Position numbers and translations under genes: made by a program
NCBI GenBank assembly: GCA_029204225.1
Contig: CM055096.1
Coordinates: forward strand, 42,741,901-42,805,900
Direction: 5' to 3'
DNA: 64,000 bases
Source of the DNA: Diphasiastrum complanatum
Taxonomy: Eukaryota; Streptophyta; Lycopodiopsida; Lycopodiales; Lycopodiaceae
In this document: positions 2,144 through 55,454 of the stretch, in pieces
How positions within the stretch are numbered: the stretch's first letter is position 1
Layout of the letters: each line of letters starts with the position of its first letter
Notes under the pieces: model-generated
The model's database searches: none
What the model saw: only the letters and a program-made list of their open reading frames with translations
Told to the model about the DNA's origin: nothing

Positions 2144-4491
2144 CTCCTCCTTAATCTGAATCCTTGAATGCCTTGACCTTCAAACTTAGTTTTTCACATA
2201 ATCTTCTATGTGACTCCAAACTTAATGCTTTAGTAAAAATATTTGCTATCATATCTTGCATTCTACAGTACTGCAATCTGACCTCTTCGTTGAGAACTTT
2301 GCTTCTGACGAAATGATACTTCAGTTCAATGTGCTTACTCTTGGAATGAAATCTAGGGCTGGTTGATAAAGCGATGGCACTTTGATTCTCACAAAATAAT
2401 GTCGTCGGAGCATATTGATTCAAACCGATATCTGATAGTAAGTTCCTCAACCAAATTGCTTCCTTTGTAGCTTGAGAGGCTGTGATATACTTTGATTCAG
2501 TGGAAGATAGAGCTATCGAAGATTGCTTGCGACTGTTCCAAGAAATTGGACCATTGTTGAGGAAGAAGGTAAATCCGGAAGTGGATTTACGAGTGTCTAC
2601 ATCTCTGGCCCAACTCGCATATGTGTAACCAATGAGAAAATTGAGTTTGTTGTTCCAACTACTCCATAACAAATGCAAAAGTCCATAGTAGCTCGAAGAT
2701 ATCTCATGACTCTAATAAGAGCCTTCCAATGTGTTATACCAAGATTAGTCATAAACTGACTGAGAGAGCTGACTGCAAAAGCTATGTCTGCTCTGGTACA
2801 AATCATGGCGTACGTAAGAAATCCTATAATAGAATGGTAAGGATACTCACACATCTGCTGCTTCTCATGAATTGTTTGGGGACACTGGTCCTTTGACAAT
2901 CTGAGTACTGGTTCCATGGGTGAGAGAGCCAACTTGCAATTCATCAGATTATATTCGATTAACATGTTGTAGATGTACCTCTGTTGTGTAATGTAGACCA
3001 ACTTCTGTTTTCTGTCTCTGTGGATTTGTATACCAAGGCAGAAATGAGCTTCGCCCAATTCGGTCATGTCGAATTCAAAAGATAGCATTGTCTTGGCTTC
3101 TTTTAGCAGATCGGTACTATTGCTGAAAAACAATGTATCATCCATGTACAAAGTGATAATGATAAAAGACTACTACAGCGGCTTTGAAGTAAACGTTTGA
3201 ATATGAAGAGCTAGGTGTATAGTCGTGATCAATAAGAAAAGTATTGATCCTTTGAAACCATGCTCGAGCAGATTGCTTTATGCCATAAAGTGCCCTATGG
3301 AGTTTACAAACATGATTGTGCTGACCCTCGATAATATAACCTTCAGGTTGCACCATGTAAATGTCTTTTTCGATAACTCCATTGAGATATGTTGTCTGTA
3401 CATCCATTTGATGTATTTCCAAATCTGCTGCAGCGACAAATGATAGCAAACTTCGAATAGAAAAATGTTTGACTACTGGACTGAAAGTCTCAGTGTAACC
3501 GACACTGTATACCTGAGAAAATCCTCTGGATACAAGTCATGCCTTTCTCCTATTGATGCTTCCATTTGCTACTTGACTTTCAAAATCCATTTGCAATCAG
3601 CTACGTTTCTGCTGGCAGGTAATTTGACAATCGTCCATGTCTGGTTCTTGATAAGAGATGAATACTCTTTATCCATAGCTTCTTTCCAGAGATCTAAATC
3701 AGGCTGAGTGAGTGCCTCTTGGACAGATGTCAGTGCTTGAACAAGATAATCTACAGACTCGTCGATATACCGGTTAGGTGGTCTGCTAGTCCTTGAAGAT
3801 CTTCTGGGTAATACAAGAAGTTGATTATTTCCATCATACTATAGTTGCTAATCTGCAACATCATCATCTTCTAATTCGTCTTTGATTTGTTGTTTGTCAA
3901 GAGTAGAGGATCTTGGACCTTCAATAGGAATAGTCAACTGAGGAACTGGAAAGTTCAAAGCATCAAGGGAATCTGATAGGTTGGCTACATGGGGACTGCC
4001 CTTTCCCTTGAGGTCTTGAAACTAATCTTCGATGAAGATGACATTCCGACTAGTGAATATCTTCGACTCGATGGGATAGAACAACTTGTAGGCTTGATCT
4101 GAAGTAGTGTAGTTGATAAAACACACTTGATACTCTGGAAGTTGAGCTTCTTCTTGAGATCACAAGGAATCTGCGTAAAGGCAGTACATCTAAAAACTCA
4201 TAAGTTTGATAAAGAAGGTTTGGTACCTGTCCAAACTTCAAATGGTGTTTTGTCTGAGAGGCCTTTAGTAAGACATCTGTTCTGAATCCAAGTTGTTGTT
4301 GAAACAGTTTCAGCTCAGAAGGACTTCGAAAGTGCCACATGTGATAACATGCACTTTGCCGATTCAACTAAGGTTCTGTTCTTTCTCTCAGCAAGACCAT
4401 GTTGGAATGGCAAAGTGGAGCCACAACCACGCTCAAAGAAATCCCATAAGTAGAAGTGGGACTTTGTTCAAAGTGGATATAAGTGGTAAAA
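2144..4491 (-). pseudogene. decayed copia pol: integrase end, reverse transcriptase, RNase H
   Basis: This is a Ty1/copia polyprotein on the minus strand, broken by frameshifts and stops. From 5' to 3' (right to left) I can read the integrase C-terminus (about 4420-4320: GLAERKNRTLVESAKCML), the start of the RT domain (about 3710-3560: DLWKEAMDKEYSSL), RT core motifs (3449-3138: QMDVQTTYLNG, LHRALYGIKQSARAW), the polymerase box YMDD near 3145 (copia usually has YVDD), and RNase H (2678-2151: GYTYASWARDVDTRKSTSGF, SSTESKYI, CENQSAIAL, and FTKALS near the end). Frames change near 3150 and 2600-2680. The element is cut at about 4480-4491, where a plus-strand copia LTR begins, so gag, protease and its own 5' LTR are missing. 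It is not functional. Confidence 0.9.
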
Positions 4492-4883: not shown

Positions 4884-6874
4884 ATGGATTTCCAAGGAAA
4901 AGCCAGTCCTATCATGGACAAGCTTGATGGAACCAATTACCATCTGTGAAAATCTAAGATGAAAATAGTGCTAATTGCTAAAGAATTATATGATGTTATT
5001 ACAGGTGCAGAGGGGAAACCCAAAGCTGATGATGCAGCAATCGCCAGATGGAAGCTGATGGATGACAAAGCATTCGCACTGATCATCCTCAACATTTCGG
5101 ATACTCAGATCAGCCATGTATCTGAAGCCCAGACATCCAAAGAAGTCTAGAACATCTTGAGCACATTATATGAAGTGCGAAATATAGCTTCCAAGCTACA
5201 TCTCAAGAAAAAATTTTACTCCCTCAAGATGAGGAATGGTGATTCTTTGCGGAATAACATAAATCAAATCAAGAACATGCTGAAGCAAATGGCCACTGTT
5301 GGATCTATCATAGACGATTAAGACGCAGTGATGCAACTGCTTACAAGCTTACCAAGCTCATACGACAGCTGGGTGATGATCATCACGACACATCCAGAAT
5401 TGACACGCAGGAACGAAGCCTCTAGTTCCTTAGCTGATTCTCACGCTTTGTACACCAACAAGAGCATGACTAAGTAGAAAAAGAAGAAAGGCTCGAAGCA
5501 ATCAAAGCAAGACCAGAAACTAGCACAGCACAAAGAACAGTCGAATCCGCAGACAAAGACGAAGTTTTTTTGCAGATATTACAAACAAAACAACCACAAA
5601 ATTCAAGACTGTCGGATACTACAAGCAAAGAACAACAGCAAGGGACAGTCGAATCAAGTGGCCAATGCAGCCATAGAAGCTCCACAGCCCATTCAAGAAA
5701 CGGATCTTGATGCCTTCATGACCAGCCATCAAGGAGCATCCAATGACAGTTCTTGCTTCCTGGAGTCCAGTGCCACTCAACATATGACCAGTCTCATTGG
5801 TTGTTTCGAGTCCTATACACCCTACAGTACCAACAAATACGTTCACCTTGGCGATAATAGCACACAAGCTATTAAAGGTGAAGGTACTGTAAGATTCAGC
5901 TTTGCAAGTGACCAATCTAAGCTACTTTCCAAAGTCCTATATCTACCCAACTTATCTGCGAATCTCCTCTCTGTAAGCAAAAATCATAGATCTAGGACAT
6001 AAAGTAGAATTCGAATGTGATCAGTGCAAAGTACTTGATAAGACAGGCACTCAAAAAGAGACATGGATACTTGCATAGATTAAGTCATTGCTTTTCTGCC
6101 TCTAGTCAGGCACTCAGTACTTCTATTCATGCAAATAAAAGTTTACTTTGGCATTATAGACTTGGTCACTTGAATCATGTTGTTGTACAACAAATGTCTA
6201 AATATTCTATTGTTCTTGATCTAGACTATTCTAGTGATAAAGTCGAGTTACTTGTCTTTCAAGATTGTCTAGTTGGTAAACAGACTAGGAAACCATTTAG
6301 ATCAAGCCATCAGCATACCATTAGAAGATTGTTAGATGTTGTACATACATAAATTTGTGGCCCGATGAAAAATCCTTCTCTGAAGGATGCAAAGTATTTC
6401 ATAACTTCTATTGATGAATTCTCCATAAGGAGTATAGTGTATTTTATCAAGAAGAAATCAAAACTTTCAATTGCTTCAAAATCTTCAAGGAGCATGCAGA
6501 AAAGGAGACTGGAAGGACGATCAAGTTCCTAAGGTCAGACAATGGTGGACAGTACATCTCTACTGAATCTAAGGAGTACTGCTAGAGCCAAATCATTGAG
6601 CAACAATTCATCACTCTTTACAGTCCTCGGTCTAATGGCTTAGCCTAGAGAAAGAACTGTACCCTAGTTGAATCAACTAAATGTATGCTAGCGCATGCAT
6701 TGCTGCCCAAGAGCTTTTGGGCCGAAGTTGTCTCCACTGCAGCTTACATCCAGAACAGATGTTCGACCAAGGCCCTCTCAAGAAAGACACCCCATGAGGT
6801 GTGGACACGCTCTAAGCCTTCTGTGAAGAACCTAAGAGTGTTCCAATGCGTTGCCTATGCATAGATCCTGAAAG
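4884..6874 (+). pseudogene. decayed copia gag-protease-integrase
   Basis: The gag start is the ATG at 4884 (MDFQGKASPIMDKLDGTNYH). The Gag domain reads on to about 5480, interrupted by single in-frame stops. A zinc knuckle near 5570 is damaged (C-RYYKQNN-H-KIQD-C: the second Cys is Tyr and the usual Gly is Asn). The protease active site near 5765 reads LESSATQHMTS, where D-S-G-A is expected. The integrase follows from 6017: the zinc-binding HYRLGHLNH part is present, but its first Cys is Phe (VFQDCLVGKQ). The catalytic-core region then continues through several stops to VWTRSKPSVKNLRVFQC near 6840. No reverse transcriptase follows. The copy is dead and 3'-truncated. Several stops replace an expected Trp (for example the tga in CTGTGA at 4948). 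Confidence 0.9.
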
Positions 6875-6912
6875 CATTAGAGGAGTTTTCAATATCAAAA
6901 AGACCCTTTAAG
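6875..6912 (+). repeat. MITE-family terminus fragment
   Basis: CATTAGAGGAGTTTTCAATA and the following A-rich GACCCTTT closely match the terminus at 28457 and, less closely, the one at 60752. It sits exactly where the copia integrase reading ends. The matching inverted end was not found, so this is a partial copy. Alternatively the copia reading may continue through it by chance (a degenerate CxVGY motif follows). Confidence 0.5.
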
Positions 6913-7389
6913 GAATGCCATGTAGGATATAGAAAAATATCAAAATAAAAAAAACAATATTGTTTATTTGCTTGCCCACACCACTCCCAAGGCCTCCCCA
7001 ACTCCCAATGATCTAACCACAGTGTCTATAGTCACAGTTAAAAACTGTTAACAGTTCGCAGTATAACTTACTAAATTCAAAAATATTCCCTCCATTGGTA
7101 ACGAAAAGGGCAATATTTTCACTAGATCTAGAATATGACTGCCACCCCCAAATTTGAATCAGAAAAAATTGCAAAATGTTTACATATGCATTCCTTCCAC
7201 GAGAATGGAAATATGGGTGCCATCTCCAATTATGAATGCCATCATCACTTTGGAATGGAAATATGAGCGCCAACTACCTATTGGAATGAAAAAATGAGCG
7301 ACATTTTCAAATTTGAATTAAGCATACAAGCATGGAGTTTGGATTGATCGTACATAGTATATAATATAATCAAAGATGAGTGCTTTGTT
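6913..7389. other. AT-rich spacer with short degenerate tandem repeats
   Basis: No gene is recognised. Between about 7090 and 7310 a degenerate unit of roughly 55-60 bp recurs, with the phrase GAATGGAAATATG(A/G)G(C/T)GCCA appearing at 7194 and 7252 and a variant at 7284. It lies directly upstream of the transposase-type gene and could be a subterminal repeat region of that element (inference). Confidence 0.4.
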
Positions 7390-7449
7390 TTGCTTCATAG
7401 AATCTGGTCATAGTACTTTGATGCAACTGATTACTCTATTATTTTTTCT

Positions 7450-8071
7450 ATGATGACATTGTATCATCTACATGTGGATATCCCTATTGATTTGGCACCT
7501 TTGCAGAGAAGAGGAGGCAAAGGAGTTCAAATATTTGCTGAGGATCGTTCTCGTTACAGGGCAGAAGGAAAACAAAACTTGGATTTGTGGATAGATGGAA
7601 CATTATATCCACAAGATCCAAGCACTTTGACACATCCCATGTTCTCTTCAATAACTCATTTAGTTACATGGATATGCAATGGACATAGTGGATTACTAGG
7701 ATATTGTGAAAGATTGCAGAACCATGGAAACAACTTTATATGAATAAAGTTCACTTTTTAGAAGGTGAGTTAATTCGGATATCCTCTTATTGTCAGAATA
7801 GAGATTGTCATCTCCAAAAGACATTAGAAGAAAATGAACAACTTAAAAAAAATAATGAATCATTACAGAAGATAACAATCGATATCAAATCAGAACTAGA
7901 GCAAATGCAATCAGTCTTATAGTCTATTTGTATTGAAAACTTACAAGTATTGAAGGATGTGGATTTGGCAAAGAAGAAGGCTGAAAGTAAGAAGCGAAAG
8001 CAAAAAAGTTGCAAGGATATTCAAACGCTTTCAAAAGGAGGTTATCAAAATAGAAGGATCTGTGCATTCAA
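7450..8071 (+). pseudogene. possible 5' exons of the transposase-type gene (coiled coil)
   Basis: Two open stretches, 7450-7740 and 7740-8071, precede an intron and the transposase domain. The first is unrecognised. The second encodes a Glu/Lys/Gln-rich coiled coil (residues about 20-60 after the ATG at 7740), crosses one TAG at 7921-7923, and continues as a Lys-rich segment (KKKAESKKRKQK, near 7970-8005). It reaches a plausible donor AA|GTAAGC near 8070. The intron 8072-8167 ends in a long pyrimidine run and TTTGCAG. Assignment to the downstream gene rests on strand, spacing and these splice signals, not on recognised homology. Confidence 0.45.
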
Positions 8072-8167
8072 GTAAGCATATTCTGATTTTTGTAAGTTTT
8101 TCAATGACATTTGGATTTAATTTCAGCTATGGTGATATTATGTTAACTATCTGTTTTTTTTTTGCAG

Positions 8168-10030
8168 ATCTGCATTAGTAGCTCCTCGAAATATTTAAGA
8201 CAATGCTTCACTAGGAATGTCATTGGGCACAATATTGACTTGCAAATCCACTGAGTGCATCATGATGAACAATAGGATTTCAAATGTAAAGTGTAAAATA
8301 GCAGAGTCTTTGATGGTGGACATTCAAAATTTTTTAGATAAGACTATAGTTCAGGGTGCTTGTGATTTTGCGGGTATTAGCAGGGAAGCATATGCAACAA
8401 TATTTAAACTAATTAGACAAGCTTTTAAGCAAGTTCAAATTAGAAAAGTCCCAATCCCTAGGACATATCACTTGAAGAAAGAGAGGGATAAATTAAACAT
8501 AGGTATGCGTAAGATCACTGGAACTCCATTTCATATTGAGGAGGTGTATGAAACTGATGGAAGATCGATATTCTATAATTCATCAAACAATTTATTTGTT
8601 GATCTAAATTACTTGATGAGATACATCATCACATTCTATGATATAACCTATGAAAAGGTGAATGGCAAAATAATCATAGTACTTAAGCTAGATGAGTCAG
8701 AAATTGTGAAAGGACAGAAGATGGAGAGGGTTAGTATAACTCTCATGAATGGTGCTCTATCACAAATAGAGAACCAAGAAGATTTCAGATTCAGTGTCCA
8801 GTCAGAAAATGATATATGGTGGTTGGTAGCATTTCAGGTAACTAGCCTCATTATTACATTACATTCATTGAATAGTATTAATACATTGTAAATTAGGTCT
8901 GATTAATTTTTTTGGACACGTGCTAAAAGAGGATCATGATATATTATCATGGATATTCTCAAGGACATCTTATCCTAGGATCATCAAGGACCATATGGAT
9001 GGAGGACTTCTCAATGTTCCAGGAGTTGGAGACTTCAATGTTGAATGGCACTTAGCAGGTGATTTGAAAACATTGAAATGTATGTATAATGTCTCTCATG
9101 GTGCTACATCAAAACACCCTTGTTTGTACTGCATGAAAATGGCAAAAGATGTAACTAGGAGTACAGGAATTACTAGAGAATATGCAAATCCAAACTGGAA
9201 GCCTGTGCTGCCTATCCCCTTAAAAAATGTGCATGTTTGCACTCTTCATGTAGAAGTTAGATTAATAGAAAAGATCATTTATCTTCATATAGTTTTTGCT
9301 TGGAATAATAAGCCAGCATCATTAGCAAATGAAGCTATCTCTCGATTAGAAGATGTTTTATCAAAAGCAGGACTCCATAAAGGACATGTCAAAATTCAAA
9401 AAGATGAAAAGCTTTCAGGAAAGAATGGGAACATGCCAACTAAGCCAAGCATAGGAGGAGCAAAAGCACGTCGTTTCCTATCAAATCATACTGGTAGGGG
9501 TTCTAATATTCAACACTCAGTCTGGACAAATATTATTGCTGCTACTCAGGACTTCGAGAAAGACGGCAAAACCAGAGTACTAAAAGTTGATGTATGGAAA
9601 AAGCTTGATAGTATGATTGCTATTTTAAGAAAAGAAAAATACTCTGATATTGATAAGAAAGCTGTCCAAAGGACTTGTGTCGAGTTTGTTAATGTAGTAT
9701 CAAAAGCATGGGGAGATGATCACATCACTCATGACATGGTTAGTATTAAATTCTTAAATGCTTTCAAATTTTCATATATATTTAGATCCAAACATAAGAC
9801 TAACATTATGATTTTGACATATGCAGCACATACTAAGAGATCATACATCATTTTTTGCAAATACATATGGAAGCTTGAGTATATGGTCATCACGAGGGAT
9901 GGAGAAGTCACACTAGCAAGCACGAGCAGCATTTCATCGAAATACACAACATGGGGGAACCAATGAAAAATGAAACTACATTTGTCAATTGTTTCAGTGG
10001 TTCTACCGCAGAGTTCAGATTTGACATATA
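8168..10030 (+). pseudogene. DDE-type DNA transposase-like gene, spliced and decayed
   Basis: The order of motifs matches a eukaryotic DNA-transposon protein family that I recognise by pattern but cannot name. First acidic site: VLKLDESEIVKGQ (Asp at residue 159 of the 8217 frame). Second: HLAGDLKTLKCMYN (8920 frame, Asp48), followed by a CX2C knuckle, KHPCLYC (Cys68, Cys71). Then a Leu/His-rich helix, VHVCTLHVEVRLIEKII. At 9739 a donor GTTAGT and at 9825 an acceptor ATGCAG remove an intron, after which the frame reads a family-type C-terminus (GSLSIWSSRGMEKSH, Glu a candidate third catalytic residue). In that spliced frame there are stops at 9914-9916, 9971-9973 and near 10022. Another intron is likely around 8838-8929, but its acceptor is unresolved. 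The gene is probably inactive. Confidence 0.7.
9739..9825 (+). other. probable intron in transposase gene
   Basis: GTTAGT at the left and a pyrimidine-containing ...TTTTGACATATGCAG at the right. Removing it joins HITHDM to HILRDHTSFFANTYGSL, which restores the family C-terminal pattern. The unspliced frame loses it. Confidence 0.65.
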
Positions 10031-10231
10031 ACAAAGTCCACACAATACAACAAGTTTAGAAAAGCATGCAAGTTTATACAGGAAGAGAAAATTAGATGAT
10101 TGTTGAGTAGAAGATCATCATTGTCATCAAATCATGACATGTTCAGAATTGCTTTGCAAATTCATTGAACAAGAAAGGAGAAATACTCAATGTAAATATT
10201 GATTGTATTATATCAAAATACAAAGTGTCAA
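10031..10231. other. 3' flank between convergent genes
   Basis: No gene is recognised. The transposase remnant ends on the left and the minus-strand unknown gene ends on the right, so this is a convergent 3' region. Confidence 0.4.
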
Positions 10232-11745
10232 CTATTCATCATCAGATCTTGTGTCAAATTCTATGGCAGTATTGTCATGAAGAAATTCTCTGCTAGCGTA
10301 TGCATCTAATAGATGTGCATTATCCTTATTTCCACTAAGCTCAATATAAGTGGAATACAATGAATAATGGGAGCTCCTAAGGAACATTCCCATCAGTAAA
10401 GCCTAAAATGTTCAAAACATAAGATCTTTTGACAAAAATGATCTTATTTGTCTTTACAAATTTATGTCCTCCTAGGTAAAATGATAAAGCTTTAACTGCC
10501 ATTATAAGAGTCTCCCCAACTGGGCTCAGCTTGGAATGAGCAATACAGATCTCATTCTTCAGGAAATGCCTAAGATAGTGGCCAAGTCCACTATCTCTCT
10601 AGAAAGACGATGTGTGTTGTCTGAAACCACCTCGTCTCGCAGCAAAATCATCTATTATGAGAGCATCCTACACTAGAAAATATGCTAGCAAAAACACATT
10701 CAGTGATTAGAAATATCGTAATGCAAGGAAGTTTAAACACTTACACATTCTTCATCATCAGCAGCAACCATATCAGGATGATCAATATAATGACCACGTA
10801 CTGAACTGGAATCATCCGTGAAATGCAATAATGATGGACGAGGGAAGCCCATCTGGGATTGAAATGCCGTGAATTCTTCATCGGATGGTCTATCTCACCC
10901 ATCCTCAACTATATTTGATAAAGTCTTAGTCAAGCATTCTTCACTAGTCATAATTCCCTCCTCATCATCAAAATCAATACCAGCAACAAGATCATCTGTT
11001 TCAAAATCGACGCAGTCGGAGAATTTGGAAATTGTGCCGGATAATAAACATAGAACCTCGTCTTCACGATAGTTAAAAAATTTACATAGATCAGTAGTAG
11101 TAAAATATACATCGTCATTAATATAATATATAGGCAAATTGAATAGACATTTAGACTCCTCTATAGGGTTGGATTCATCAGCAGATGTATTTTGGCCAAT
11201 AAAAGAATCACGTAGAAAATCAATATATATATCAATAAAGTCACTTTCCTTATCAGGAGTGTCGATAAGAAAGTGACTAATATCCTTATAGCTGACTGAA
11301 CGGAGGATGATGCAAAAGGAGGGTCAGCAACAGAAATTTCATCATCATATGGGATCTGAACTAACATGAAAAGTACGAAACCACTCTGATATTCAACCAA
11401 TCGACATTTCTTGTTGCAATAAGGACACAGTGAACTGCTTTTGAAAAGATCAAACAATTTGGTGAATATTCTATCCAGTCTATGTCTGAAAGCTGGGAAG
11501 AAATGAACCAAATCAGTATAATGCATGTATTGGAGTGAACCTATGGAAAAAACAGACTTTCTAAGTATATCTCTGAATCTGACATAATGTTCATAAAATA
11601 CGTCAGAATTTGGTTGTGCAGTCTTGAAAACATGTAGATATGGTCTGAATAGGCTGTGGAAGAAGTCTAGGTTTTCAGTAATCCCAAATTCACTAAGAAA
11701 TGGACTCAAGCCTGAATCTCGTGAGGGTCCTGAGGAAGAGGCCAT
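10232..11745 (-). pseudogene. unknown spliced gene with a CX2C motif and acidic regions
   Basis: I do not recognise this protein. The ATG is at 11745 (MASSSGPSRDSGLSPFLSEF). Residues about 15-140 are aromatic-rich with a CPYCNKKC motif (near 11430-11410). A one-base frame slip near 11290 is needed to continue into SYKDISHFLIDTPDKESDF, and the frame then runs open to about 10890, with Asp/Glu-rich stretches near 11000 and 10750. One TGA (near 10888) interrupts it. An intron 10744-10668 (donor GTAAGTG, acceptor TGTAG) joins the next exon. A second, very short intron 10457-10403 (GTAAAG...TTTTAG) restores frame into the last exon, which ends with TAG at 10232. It is transcribed divergently from the histone gene. 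It could be an accessory gene of the neighbouring transposon. One frameshift and one or two stops suggest it is dying. Confidence 0.55.
10668..10744 (-). other. intron in the unknown minus-strand gene
   Basis: On the minus strand it begins GTAAGTGTTTAAAC and ends TTTTCTAGTGTAG, a good plant GT-AG intron of 77 bases. The flanking frames join as DDEEC / DALIIDDFAARRGG. Confidence 0.65.
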
Positions 11746-12577
11746 CAAAATAACGTGAATATCGGACTTGTGCGCGAGGGAGAAGAGAAACAGAACTAAC
11801 TATCAAGATGGCGCACAAGAGAGATATGTATGGCGGAGATACCGAATATTGCACTTGTGCGCAAGTAGGTGTCGTTGAGTGCAAACGGACAACAAAGCGT
11901 GCGCACAAGAGTGATATGCCGCGAATTTCGATAACGGAAAAAGGTAAAAAATTAATCGGTTTTTGTGCCATTTATAGTAAATTTTTGCACGTGCGGTCAA
12001 CAATCAATGGACACATGTCTACTTTCCATTCGAGTACAGCTACTCGCACGTGTGAGGTGACACCTGGACAAGTGTGAAATGACAACTGGACACGTGTCGC
12101 ATGTTCATTCATGTGCTCAAAAATACGTGTCGCTCTATCATTTGCTCATACAAATCTCACACGTGCAAAGTGACAACGTGACACATGTCGCTCTATCATT
12201 AGTTCGTACAACTTTCACACGTGTGACAGGACATTCTTTCGCACGTGCGAACTGCGATATAAAATCACAAACTTCGATGAATTTTTTTTACTTTTTTTTT
12301 CCGCTCCGCATATCGCACTTGTGCACGTCCTTCACAATCGAATTTCCACCCACCGCCTTCCATGCGCACAGGTCCAATACATCTGCCTACGTGTCCCCCC
12401 GTATCGCACTTGTGTGTGTTTCTTCAAGACTAATCTCTTTCTCTTATATTCAGCTCGCATAGGTCTGATATACCGTACGTTTTTTTCGTACATATCGATC
12501 CTCTGCGAGATTTTTATCACCCTTCCCTGCTCATCCTCGCCATCACACACAAGTCCGCTATTGCATAGTACACGTCC
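11746..12577. promoter_or_regulatory. divergent promoter region with clustered E-box/G-box-like motifs
   Basis: This 832-base spacer separates two divergently oriented genes. At least fifteen related short motifs are seen, many palindromic: GCACTTGTGCGC at 11851, GCACGTGC at 11988, CGCACGTGTG at 12045, GGACACGTGTCGC at 12088, CACACGTG at 12158 and 12217, GCACGTGCGA at 12241, CGCACTTGTGCACGT at 12314, CGCACTTGTGTG at 12405, and GCGCACAAGA at 11811 and 11901. Positions 12124-12182 and 12183-12241 are two copies of a 59-base unit. GATATAAAATCAC at 12256 could be a TATA box for the histone gene. CACGTG-type boxes bind bHLH/bZIP factors in plants (known). Binding here is inference. Confidence 0.6.
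12124..12241. repeat. two tandem 59-bp units
   Basis: The phrase GTCGCTCTATCATT occurs at 12128 and again at 12187. In each copy it is followed by a (G/A)CTC/GTTC-ATACAA variant and then CACACGTG. The copies differ at several bases, so the duplication is not recent. Confidence 0.8.
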
Positions 12578-13000
12578 ATGGATAGGAGAAAGCAGACAAG
12601 GAGAGACTTCTTCTCTCTTGGCTCGTCCTCAGCCCCTACGGTGGCCATTACCCCTCCTGCTAGACATAGAACGCGCAACCGCAGCAGGTGGCTCTCTGAG
12701 ATACGCAAGTACCAAAGATCAATTGCTCTGTTGATCCCAAGGGCTCCATTCTACCGTGCTATCCGAAACATAACAAGAAATGATCTCAGACAGCTGGTCA
12801 TATTTACACCCAGTGCTCTTCAATGCCTTCAGGAGGCTGCTGAAGACTACCTTAGTCTTTTTTTTGAAGATTCATTTTTGCTTGCCATCCATTCCAAGAG
12901 AGTCACCATAATGCCCAAGGATTTTCAGCTCCTGATGAGAATGAGGGATAGTTTGTATATGTTCACATCCCCTCGCACGTACACAAATTTGCGCAATTAG
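12578..13000 (+). CDS. histone H3 variant, CENH3-like
   Basis: An intact 140-codon intronless frame encodes a histone fold of the H3 family. H3 packages DNA with H4; CENH3 variants replace it at centromeres and recruit the kinetochore. Seen directly: a 37-residue basic tail that keeps a RxKQTxR phrase like the H3 tip (KQT at 5-7, Asp where Lys9 would be); the alphaN helix EIRKYQRSIALLIP (41-54); PFYRAIRNI (57-65); a loop 1 about one residue longer than in canonical H3; QEAAEDYL (85-92); FFEDSFLLAIHSKRVTIMPKDFQL (95-118, read in parts). LLIP, the longer loop and QEAAEDYL are CENH3-like; PF and MPKD are H3-like. The C-terminus is extended by about 17 unusual residues. Plant CENH3 genes normally have introns, so a retrocopy or transposon capture is possible. 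Transposase sequences flank it. The start is the first ATG of the frame. Confidence 0.85.
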   Translation: MDRRKQTRRDFFSLGSSSAPTVAITPPARHRTRNRSRWLSEIRKYQRSIALLIPRAPFYRAIRNITRNDLRQLVIFTPSALQCLQEAAEDYLSLFFEDSFLLAIHSKRVTIMPKDFQLLMRMRDSLYMFTSPRTYTNLRN

Positions 13001-13085: not shown

Positions 13086-13215
13086 GAGAAGCTTCATATA
13101 GCTTTTTTCTTGGAATACTAAGCCATCATCATCTTTGAAGGAAGCTATCTCTCGATTAGAAGAAAGGGACATGTCAAAATACAGAAAGATGAAAAGCTTT
13201 CAGGAAAGTCAAGAA
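13086..13215 (+). pseudogene. second, internally deleted transposase fragment
   Basis: The sequence matches 9268-9425 of the transposase gene in the same orientation, sharing GAAGCTATCTCTCGATTAGAAG, AGGACATGTCAAAAT and GATGAAAAGCTTTCAGGAAAG nearly exactly (quoted in short pieces). About two dozen bases are deleted between the second and third blocks. It lies just 3' of the histone frame, so the histone sits between two pieces of one transposon family. Confidence 0.8.
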
Positions 13216-28097: not shown

Positions 28098-29281
28098 TGT
28101 TGGATTTATTCCTCTACTCTCCTAAAACCCATGTTAATTTGGTTCCATTCAAATCGTTGCAGTTTTACATGCATTGTCGCACAGTCTGTAAAAATATTCT
28201 ATTATCGGAGACAGGCTTAAAGGACTCATCTGACTTGTCAACTTGCTCGACTTGATCGGGTGGTCCGACTTGTCGATTCTCTTGACTAGTCAACTTGTCT
28301 GACTTATCAGGGGGTCCGAGAAGACCATATTGTCCCCACTTTATCGACTATTGGCAGCAACATGCTCAACTCCGAATAGTCGAAGCCATTTCATGCTCAC
28401 TTCCTATATTATGCAACTACTTGACAATGACAGTAGCCATCACGATCTACTCCAGACATTAGAGGAGTTCTAAATCCAAAAAAGACCCTTTGTAAAGATT
28501 CTTTTTATATTTTTTCTTACACATGGACCAATCAAAACACTCAAATTTGAAATCTACGTAACATAACTTTTTGAGTCCACATTTTGATTCCACACTAAAA
28601 ATGACATAACTTTTTAGTGGTAAGTCCAAATTTAGCGGAGTTTAGTGCATTGGAAAGCGCTCAAAAGGGCTTCCTAATGATATGTTACATGACATATTTT
28701 TGAGCTATGATTAAAAAGTTATGGCAAGTCAAAAGTATTAGTGTTATAATATTTTAATAATATAAACTACATCTTGCTTGGAGCTCAAAACTCCTCTAAT
28801 GTGGCATAACGACTCCACGCCACTTTATTATACACTCATCTACACAAACGTAAATTGTATATAGTTGACCATTGTAAATCTAATTAATTAAGAGGTTAAT
28901 GAGACAGACTCAGTAGATGCTTTCACGCATTGATTCTTTCTTTTAGACTGATAGTCAATAATAAGATAGCTTGTACAAAGTGGAGTTAGCTTCTTGAGCC
29001 CTCGGTTTTGTCCGCTATTGTCTTGTGCTCATAGCATCAATCTGGCATGTATTTCTATACATTAATCTGAATCAATCTCTGTCTTTTATTGCGTTTATAG
29101 TTCTTGTTAGAATTGTATGCGTTCCTACTTTGTCTTCTTGTGTAATTCTCTTACTGCTTTGTCTGATTGTCTACTCTTCTGCTTCTGCAAACAACCGCGC
29201 AATTAAGCTCTACTCTTGTGTTTTCATAATGTTGTTGTAGTGCACGCACCGAGGATTCATCTTTCGCATCGAATCCCGACA
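28098..29281 (+). mobile_element. solo copia LTR inserted in Gag-only element copy 2
   Basis: It starts TGTTGGATTTATTCC and ends AATCCCGACA. The LTR at 61843-62720 starts TGTTGGATTTATCC and ends AATCCTAACA, with shared inner phrases (GTCGCACAGTCTG, AGTAGATGCTTT, GCATTGATT, TGTCCGCTATTGTCTTGTGC versus TGCCCGCTATTGTCTTGTGC). The five bases before it are ATTGG and the five after are AGTGG. Removing the LTR and one repeat gives CATTGGGAGCAGTTG, matching the unoccupied copy-1 sequence CATTGGGACCAGTTG at about 25252. This is strong evidence for a solo LTR with a target-site duplication. Its net length is about 840 bases without the nested insert. Confidence 0.85.
28456..28802 (+). mobile_element. 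MITE-like element nested in the solo LTR
   Basis: The ends are ACATTAGAGGAGTT (28456-28469) and AACTCCTCTAATGT (28789-28802), perfect 14-base inverted repeats. The sibling LTR at 61843 lacks this block at the equivalent position (about 62272). It has no coding frame. A clear target-site duplication is not visible, so the class is unknown. The inner phrase TTACACATGGACCAATCAAAACA recurs inverted near 61445-61470 (given in part). Confidence 0.75.
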
Positions 29282-54493: not shown

Positions 54494-55454
54494 TTAGAAA
54501 AAAAAAAATTTAATAACGTATGGCCCCTCACTTCTGAATTTCAATTTGCCGGGGTGCTTCTTTGATGTATAAAGAAGCACCTGGTCACCTAAGTGTAGAT
54601 CTTTATTGCGCAGGTGACGGTCATGCCAAGCCTTTTGGCGTCGTTTGTTAACGAGTTGTGCGTGATAAGATATTAGTCTTGTCTCGCATAACTGGGCTAA
54701 CGTAAATAGCTTGGTTTTGACTTGTTGTTCTATTGAAGCCTTTTCACAAAGATTTGTTGAAAAAGCTTCCGTAACTCTTAGTGAAGGTACTAAGAATTCC
54801 AAGGGCATTACCGCTTCTTGACCATATACTAAGTGGAAAGGTGTAATCCACCCAGTGGCTTTCTTCGGGGTGGTGCGGTAAGCCCAAATAGTTGAGAAAA
54901 GTTTTGTTTCCCAATCAGAGCGACTGGTTTTAACTATCTTGGTTAAAATTTTGTTAGTGGATTCAGCCTGGCCATTACACCTAGGATAGTACGGTGTACT
55001 TTTTCTGTGAACGACCATGTAATGGCGTAGGAAGTTATCAACGACAGCATTTAAAAAATGTGTGCCAGGATCACTAACAAGCTTTATGGGATAGCCAAAA
55101 CGTGTAATAATGTTTTCGTAAAGAAAACGTGCAACTATCTCTGCATTGGCATCCTTTGTTGCTCAAGCCTGCACCCACTTACTGGCGTAATCTGTGGCTA
55201 TGAGGATGTATCGAGCTTGGGTATGTTTTGTTGCTGGACTGATTGGGACAACAAAGTCAATTCCCACTTATGGAAGGCTTCGCCTTCTATAATGAGAGTC
55301 ATTGGCGTGAAGTCTGCTTTGGTATTTTTCTTTGCTCGTTGATAGACATCACACGCTTTTATGACAACAAACGTGTCCCTAAACAAAGATGGCCACCACA
55401 ATCCTTGCTCTAAGGATAATCTTCGTTGTGGCTTCAGCAGAAAAGTGGCCACCC
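54494..55454 (-). pseudogene. gypsy integrase remnant
   Basis: The minus-strand frame 55452-55198 carries the integrase zinc/linker region (GLWWPSLFRDTFVVIKACDVYQ). After frame breaks, 55018-54494 gives the end of the catalytic core (STPYYPRCNGQAESTNKIL, with the Glu of the DDE triad in GQAE) and the C-terminal domain (HLGDQVLLYTSKKHPGKLK). This is typical of Ty3/gypsy elements. The 5' side joins directly to LTR sequence at 55455, so gag, protease, RT and RNase H are absent. Confidence 0.9.

Follow-up and report, generated by a model that had tools for sequence, protein, structure and literature searches.

We found that the histone H3-like reading frame at positions 12578 to 13000 of the window, the 64-kb stretch of DNA analysed here, is, with a probability of about 0.9, the truncated N-terminal portion of an accessory gene carried by a DNA transposon of ~9 kb that has terminal inverted repeats (TIRs). 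In other copies of the element this gene joins an H3 domain to a Ulp1/C48 protease domain, and it is referred to below as the H3-C48 gene. The frame itself was as first described, with 140 open codons on the forward strand and an H3 fold recognised by the Pfam Histone family (PF00125, E=4.7e-28, 98.3 bits against a curated cut-off of 26.4). Its best sequence match in the PDB was 6ftx_E, an H3.3C chain (E=4e-23), and the nearest solved chains were H3. The features listed in the initial annotation, namely LLIP, QEAAEDYL, a KQT motif in the tail and, by alignment, a loop 1 one residue longer than that of H3, were all present.

The genome (1.745 Gb, 5,176 contigs) was searched with the H3 frame. 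This yielded 6,870 first-look candidates, and scoring was confined to the best 150. These were 82-91% identical to the window frame (the window itself apart), none of them matched past residue 129, and they were present on each of contigs C1-C24. In 23 of the 150 rows (counted by eye; some look like haplotype duplicates) the match was free of stops and lay in an open frame of 325 aa or longer, while 127 had a stop in the match or a frame shorter than 325 aa. The large number of copies, the end of the matches by residue 129 and the long open frames together showed that the window frame belongs to a repeat and to a longer protein. The initial annotation had raised two doubts about its own reading, that the frame was a host single-copy gene and that all its other copies were degenerate; neither agrees with this census, and the long open frames are joined by an open spliced product of 479 aa in one copy (c3, see below).

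We then compared the window copy with four other copies, each read with 6 kb of flank on each side. It was 93.4-94.2% identical to three of them over about 6.1 kb, starting near 6872, and 86% identical to the fourth over 2.5 kb, and the block of identity included the transposase-like ORFs, a minus-strand gene and the H3 ORF. The search for further copies suggested by the initial annotation thus found the same element around the gene in all four copies with flanks read. The H3 ORF lies inside one continuous element copy, from about 6875 to 12954-12968, and not between two pieces of a transposon. We call the lineage of the window copy family A; B, B2 and C are related lineages in the same genome. 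The features of the window are as follows.

6875 to 12954, plus strand: truncated element copy, the left two thirds or so of a ~9-kb element (identity ends at 12954-12968, depending on the copy compared)
6875 to 6909, plus strand: 35-bp terminal inverted repeat of the left end (copies c1 and c3 end in its right-hand complement)
7414 to 9966, plus strand: candidate transposase gene of several exons, from ORFs and conservation (best ORFs 8199-8891 and 8872-9966)
10377 to 11745, minus strand: ORF2, divergently transcribed, probably with more than one exon, from ORFs (3' part homologous in B and B2)
11746 to 12577, no strand: divergent intergenic region separating ORF2 from the H3 gene; ATATCGCACTTGTGCGC occurs here six times, on both strands, and G-boxes are clustered
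12578 to 12955, plus strand: codons 1-126 of the H3-C48 gene, encoding the H3-like histone domain (PF00125, E=4.7e-28)
12956 to 13000, plus strand: last 14 codons and stop of the frame, unrelated to the element (no identity to copies past ~12954-12968)
13093 to 13208, plus strand: remnant of a related but diverged transposase (73% identity to the transposase region of the element)
28457 to 28801, plus strand: MITE-like, non-autonomous element of 345 bp that has both terminal repeats of the ~9-kb element

This layout revised several points of the initial annotation. Of the transposase sequence placed on both sides of the gene, the left ORFs (~8199-9966) do share its orientation, but the right piece is a diverged relic and not the element's other end. 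What had been taken for a novel C-terminal extension is unrelated DNA: identity to other copies stops near codon 126, leaving residues 127-140 outside the element. Nor is the gene intact, since the window copy ends before the C48 part and also lacks the right-end gene and the right terminal repeat. In addition, its residue at the H3 R83 position is Ile, whereas Arg or Lys occupies this site in the other family A copies with a frame read. The absence of introns holds for the piece in the window, but the full gene has three, all of them 3' of the H3 domain.

The element begins with CATTAGAGGAGTTCTCAATATCAAAAAGACCCTTT, and the reverse complement of this sequence closes copies c1 (about 9.0 kb) and c3 (about 8.0 kb), giving the termini CATTAG...CTAATG. 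Inverted repeats were thus found at both ends of dispersed copies, as in a DNA transposon. Genome-wide, the 35-bp repeat had 2,378 matches at up to 3 mismatches (1,154 forward and 1,224 reverse), and the reversed control had 0. A consistent target-site duplication was absent: among the long pairs a 3-bp match occurred in one of six candidates (a seventh pair was excluded as an inverted duplication), and among 15 MITE-like loci none of the 14 with both ends (11 distinct) showed a 3-bp match, with 3 of the 11 matching over 2 bp. The 345-bp MITE-like element had 3,438 first-look candidates in the genome, of which 40 were scored. Scans of viral contigs with the H3 frame and with the transposase returned no relatives, and a viral origin was rejected. 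No RNA families or tRNAs were found in the 64-kb window, and ORFs at 2151-3169 and 54494-55162 (-), which by eye look like pieces of Copia and Ty3/Gypsy retrotransposons, are unrelated to the element.

Dense exact matches to the terminal repeat were seen on C1 at 65.0-66.7 and 95.0-100.6 Mb (read by eye); a Copia pattern used as a control on C1 gave no such cluster among the matches listed (to about 83 Mb). Two copies of an internally deleted element from the C1 clusters were 99.7% identical, including ~0.3 kb of flank outside the repeat. Segmental duplication accounts for at least part of this clustering, which was therefore not counted as evidence for the centromere targeting that the initial annotation had proposed.

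The full H3-C48 gene, as read in other copies, encodes an H3 domain of ~126 aa, a proline-rich linker with basic stretches and a C-terminal Ulp1/C48 domain. In copy c3 it consists of four exons separated by three GT-AG introns and gives an open product of 479 aa, which matched both Histone (E=3.1e-24) and Peptidase_C48/Ulp1 (PF02902, residues 327-437, 32.1 bits against a curated cut-off of 20.7). The same splice model, when applied to other copies, failed at one of the patterns used, so that c3 is the only copy with a complete predicted product. A pattern search over 32 rows picked up the exon with the Cys motif 21 times, and 18 of these exons read CGWY; in copy c23, overlooked by the pattern, Phe replaces Cys. 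The HW motif of the protease is present, and lineages B and B2 have CGW. At the apparent position of the Asp of the Ulp1 triad we read Asn (MNS) in A, B and B2 (by eye). Since Asn seemingly replaces the triad Asp, catalysis by the C48 domain is not assured.

To measure coding constraint, we estimated dN/dS from 27 distinct copies among the 32 read. The H3 domain gave 0.22 (0.15-0.32, 27 copies), with 0.90 and 1.01 in the shifted frames; because the loci had been chosen by H3 protein similarity, this value is biased downwards and the other exons provide the fairer test. After removal of copies less than 75% identical to c3 in a given exon, dN/dS was 0.43 for C48 exon 1 (0.30-0.63; 23 copies, 4 of 27 dropped), 0.30 for exon 2 (0.20-0.48; 20 copies, 7 dropped) and 0.16 for exon 3 (0.08-0.35; 18 copies, 9 dropped), and 0.33 for the pooled C48 exons (0.25-0.45; 16 copies). 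The linker gave 0.86 (0.56-1.36), and the introns, taken in three frames, 0.99-1.42 (intron 1) and 0.65-0.89 (intron 2). Shifted frames of the exons ranged from 0.58 to 1.55. The minimum, 0.58 (0.41-0.86), came from exon 1 and overlaps its true frame, so that exon 1 alone is modest evidence. A sliding-window dN/dS over five copies was too noisy for exon definition. The comparison between copies called for in the initial annotation thus pointed to constraint, and the filtered values make the identification of the gene firmer and leave the mechanism unaffected.

From left to right the element carries a transposase-like gene (forward), ORF2 (minus strand), the H3 gene (forward) and ORF4 (minus strand), the last of these at its right end. 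In a Pfam search of these genes only the H3 gene scored above cut-off; the candidate transposase, ORF2 and ORF4 had no match, and no known superfamily could be assigned to the candidate transposase by this route. As its pieces have no Pfam family, we infer a transposase from the TIRs, from conservation and from invariant acidic residues in LKLD, GDLK and QGMEKSHW. A structure prediction for part of it, made without an alignment, had a pLDDT of 39 and was disregarded. The 3' part of ORF2 is 39-53% identical in amino acids to its homologues in B and B2. Separately, the end of the ORF4 homologue in lineage C (~789-1150 of the joined stretch, C17:36123200-36126950) gave a below-cut-off match to the ubiquitin-like PB1 domain (E=0.052). 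This hints that the C-terminal part of ORF4 may be beta-grasp-like, which, if true, would be notable next to a Ulp1 protease.

Further lineages were recovered by a scan with the fold of a plant CENH3 (an approximate sequence), which returned canonical host H3 genes and repeat families. What follows on gene content rests on a single copy for each of B, B2 and C. Lineage B has the same genes as A in the same order and orientation (transposase, part of ORF2, H3 with the C48 Cys motif, ORF4), and the copy read has stops within the H3 frame and after the Cys motif. Lineage B2 also has the same genes, in a copy with an inverted block that comprises most of the transposase and part of ORF2; its joined exons matched Histone at 1.5e-24 and C48 at E=0.0022 (18.3 bits, below the curated 20.7). 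The fusion of H3 with C48 was thus present in lineages A and B/B2. Between A and B/B2 the transposase is 64-70% identical in amino acids over the best segments and about 46-57% over N-terminal segments, and the H3 domains are only 43-49% identical.

In lineage C the H3 domain stands at the C-terminus of a 394-codon frame rich in SR, Gln and Pro (C17:36123200-36126950). Upstream (5') of this frame, three colinear open pieces are homologous to ORF4 of A, B or B2, with E values of 4e-16 to 1e-7 in a comparison that used six stretches as the database and straight translations; 0 of 50 shuffles produced a match at 1e-3. Neither a KQT tail (in the frame read) nor a C48 domain was found in the 3.75 kb read. 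The fusion in A and B/B2, together with a C-terminal H3 domain near an ORF4 homologue in C, indicates that at least three lineages within a single transposon group have predicted H3-like genes, in two architectures. The end of the lineage C frame, KDLHLARRLR, resembles a partial host CENH3-like gene.

The tail of the predicted histone generally retains K4 and lacks K9 in the A and B/B2 copies read. Of 32 family A rows, 31 have Lys at the position of K4 and none has it at that of K9 (near-identical copies included); within the first 38 residues, 6 of 32 rows have one further Lys and 1 of 32 has no Lys at all. Lineages B and B2 have a tail of about MARTKQTARL, with K4 in 6/6 rows and Leu for K9 in 6/6 (read by eye), and three of the six rows have no other tail Lys. 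Within the fold, H113, R116, V117, T118, D123, L126, R129 and R131 are kept in all transposon rows of the table, and H113, R116, D123, L126 and R129 are what we take to be H3-H3 and H4 interface residues. The R49, K56 and R63 positions vary among the transposon rows.

The relation of these domains to H3 and CENH3 was less clear. The fold of the window frame shares 53% identity with host H3 and 49% with the CENH3 of Arabidopsis. Plant-CENH3-type residues, R63P and T107S/A, occur in the A, B, B2 and C rows, R63 being Pro in both plant CENH3 sequences. The phylogeny proposed in the initial annotation was informative in part: A joined B at 86/85, but the deep nodes leading to H3 or CENH3 were weak (66/69). 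The loss of K9 could have been inherited from a CENH3-like parent rather than selected. As for host genes, canonical H3 genes are present in the genome, and C3 has, at ~74.76 Mb (C3:74759000-74769000), part of an intron-containing host CENH3-like gene; two of its exons were read, one of them PKDLHLARRLRG, and no upstream exons were found in the 10 kb read. Intron-bearing H3.3-type genes or fragments were also seen on C20 and C22.

The divergent promoter shared by ORF2 and the H3 gene contains a cluster of repeated motifs. At up to 3 mismatches, ATATCGCACTTGTGCGC occurred six times in the 64-kb window, always within 11759-12417 and on both strands; 0.07 occurrences were expected, and six were reached in 0 of 100 shuffles. 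Four other long copies, read over 12 kb, each have the 13-bp core of the motif five to seven times at the corresponding position and lack it elsewhere. Across 30 loci, 27 had at least five copies of the core and three had 0-2. In the promoter of lineage B another motif, TATCGCTACCATGCGAG, which shares the TATCGC half, occurs six times at up to 4 mismatches (shuffle mean 0.1, for a motif chosen after inspection of B), and this motif also occurred three times at 3-4 mismatches upstream of the B2 H3 gene (shuffle mean 0.2). In addition, the window promoter has six CACGTG G-boxes against 0.14 in shuffles, a density increase of ~40x, and the promoters including that of lineage B have 6-8 against about 0.15. 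According to the accessible text of PMC13317346, the VANC-type anti-silencing proteins of Arabidopsis recognise family-specific motifs of this sort in VANDAL elements, and Ulp1 is found in some VANC genes.

Overall, the best explanation of the gene appears to be a transposon-encoded chromatin effector, probably an anti-silencing one, a reading to which we give even odds. That the H3-C48 protein itself has an anti-silencing function we would put at slightly under even. In such a scheme, the protein would pair with H4 and enter nucleosomes, perhaps over the element's own motif-rich promoter, with specificity supplied by ORF2 or the transposase. The H3 tail thus introduced could be methylated at K4 and could not be methylated at K9, and the C48 domain would bring a deSUMOylase onto this chromatin. 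SUMO- and H3K9-dependent silencing would be blunted as a result, and the element would stay expressible. The involvement of a SUMO-ligase-like protein, MOM1-PIAL2, in plant transcriptional silencing (PMC6084981, accessible text) offers a possible target for a C48 protease. KIU-carrying elements, moreover, induce hypomethylation of their own family, and a Ulp1 protein of transposable elements has been linked with loss of silencing (PMC13317346, accessible text). A more specific version can be put forward only tentatively: nucleosomes with a K9-less, K4-retaining H3 variant and a deSUMOylase over the motif clusters might form silencing-resistant chromatin that protects the whole family, each lineage having its own histone-motif pair that would diverge as if in an arms race. 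Lineage C, with a C-terminal H3 domain and with neither a KQT tail nor C48 in the 3.75 kb read, does not fit a single tail-plus-protease mechanism shared by all.

Other functions would use the same domains differently. The H3-like domain might tether transposition complexes to chosen chromatin, such as that containing CENH3 or another H3 variant, with the protease freeing SUMO-bound factors. The CENH3-type R63P and T107S/A in all four lineages would suit such targeting, as would retrotransposon integration directed to CENH3 chromatin, the subject of a published title cited in the accessible text of PMC13317346. However, the best 150 copies are spread over all of C1-C24, the C1 repeat clusters reflect segmental duplication at least in part, and the placement of the domain relative to CENH3 rests on weak deep nodes, so that we regard targeting as rather unlikely. 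Also unlikely is a role at the element ends in transposition or repair, in which the histone fold would be a DNA-wrapping scaffold and the protease would act on SUMOylated repair factors. Ulp1 or OTU domains do accompany several DNA transposons, for which such roles have been suggested (PMC2836005, accessible text); here, however, the H3-C48 gene shares its promoter with ORF2 and is not part of the transposase gene, and an accessory of this kind has no need of a K4-retaining tail. An objection of a similar kind, that neither the conserved KQT tail nor the protease would be needed, makes it quite improbable that a soluble H3-like protein sequesters H4 or H3 chaperones and disturbs host chromatin assembly without bulk entry into nucleosomes, even though the retention of H3-H3 and H4 interface residues while R49, K56 and R63 vary speaks for such a decoy.

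Two further readings would deny the gene any role in the element. A captured, functionless histone fragment multiplied with the transposon would account for the stops or short frames in 127 of the best 150 copies, and gene capture is common in plant transposable elements (PMC13317346, accessible text). Yet the fusion and the gene set are common to lineages whose H3 domains are only 43-49% identical, and dN/dS is well below 1 in the C48 exons and near 1 in the introns; this coding constraint is hard to reconcile with a pure passenger, which we consider very improbable. The possibility that the window frame is a host CENH3 or H3-variant gene with later transposon insertions is negligible. Its CENH3-like residues and the presence of host histone genes in the genome had made it worth considering, but the copy number (best 150 of 6,870 candidates scored) and the same position within the same repeat in all four flank-read copies refute it for the window locus, and a separate intron-bearing CENH3-like fragment lies on C3. 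The chromatin effector is our preferred reading. If it is correct, the element would permit a direct test of whether transposons in this plant are held back chiefly by the H3K9 and SUMO pathways, and would be a natural tool for making local silencing-resistant chromatin. Because transposon H3 genes are so numerous, histone and CENH3 annotation in this genome, and perhaps in those of relatives, is at risk of confusing host genes with them.

Several known systems share parts of this design. MULEs generate a 9-bp target-site duplication, and CACTA elements have CACTA termini and a 2-3 bp duplication. We assigned the present element to neither: Pfam found no MULE (or VANDAL) transposase domain and no 9-bp duplication was seen, and the termini are CATTAG...CTAATG with no consistent duplication. 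Like the VANDAL MULEs (KIU/Kaonashi, VANC-Ulp1), it is a DNA transposon of several genes with a Ulp1/C48 accessory gene and non-coding motifs that differ by family (PMC13317346, accessible text). It differs from them in its clear TIRs, its putative transposase pieces without a Pfam match and the fusion of C48 to H3, the word 'histone' occurring 0 times in the accessible text of that review. Ginger1 elements are likewise TIR DNA transposons, many with a C-terminal Ulp1, but there Ulp1 is attached to a Gypsy-integrase-like transposase (PMC2836005, accessible text), whereas here it is part of the H3 gene and Pfam detects no integrase in the transposase pieces, which argues against membership. CryptonF and CryptonS also carry a C48 domain or gene in a DNA transposon, but they are tyrosine-recombinase elements, and no H3 domain is described for them in the accessible text of PMC3212892.

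Plant CENH3 and H3 variants share with the H3-C48 protein the H3 fold, LLIP/LIP, QEAAE, the KQT tail (H3) and R63P (CENH3); in contrast to them, the H3-C48 gene is element-encoded, present in many copies, extended by a C-terminal C48 domain and devoid of K9. Viral histones, such as the H4 of bracoviruses and the histones of giant viruses, are cases of selfish or parasitic elements with a core histone of their own, although they belong to viruses and not to a TIR transposon, and none is known to us to be fused to a protease. Among the titles listed in searches of open-licence papers, none dealt with an H3 encoded by a transposon. We know of no transposon that encodes a core histone. The anti-silencing factors known to us from transposons, VANC among them (PMC13317346), target DNA methylation or small RNA; if our reading is right, this element would instead supply the carrier of a silencing mark without the residue that is marked, and would couple it to the removal of SUMO.
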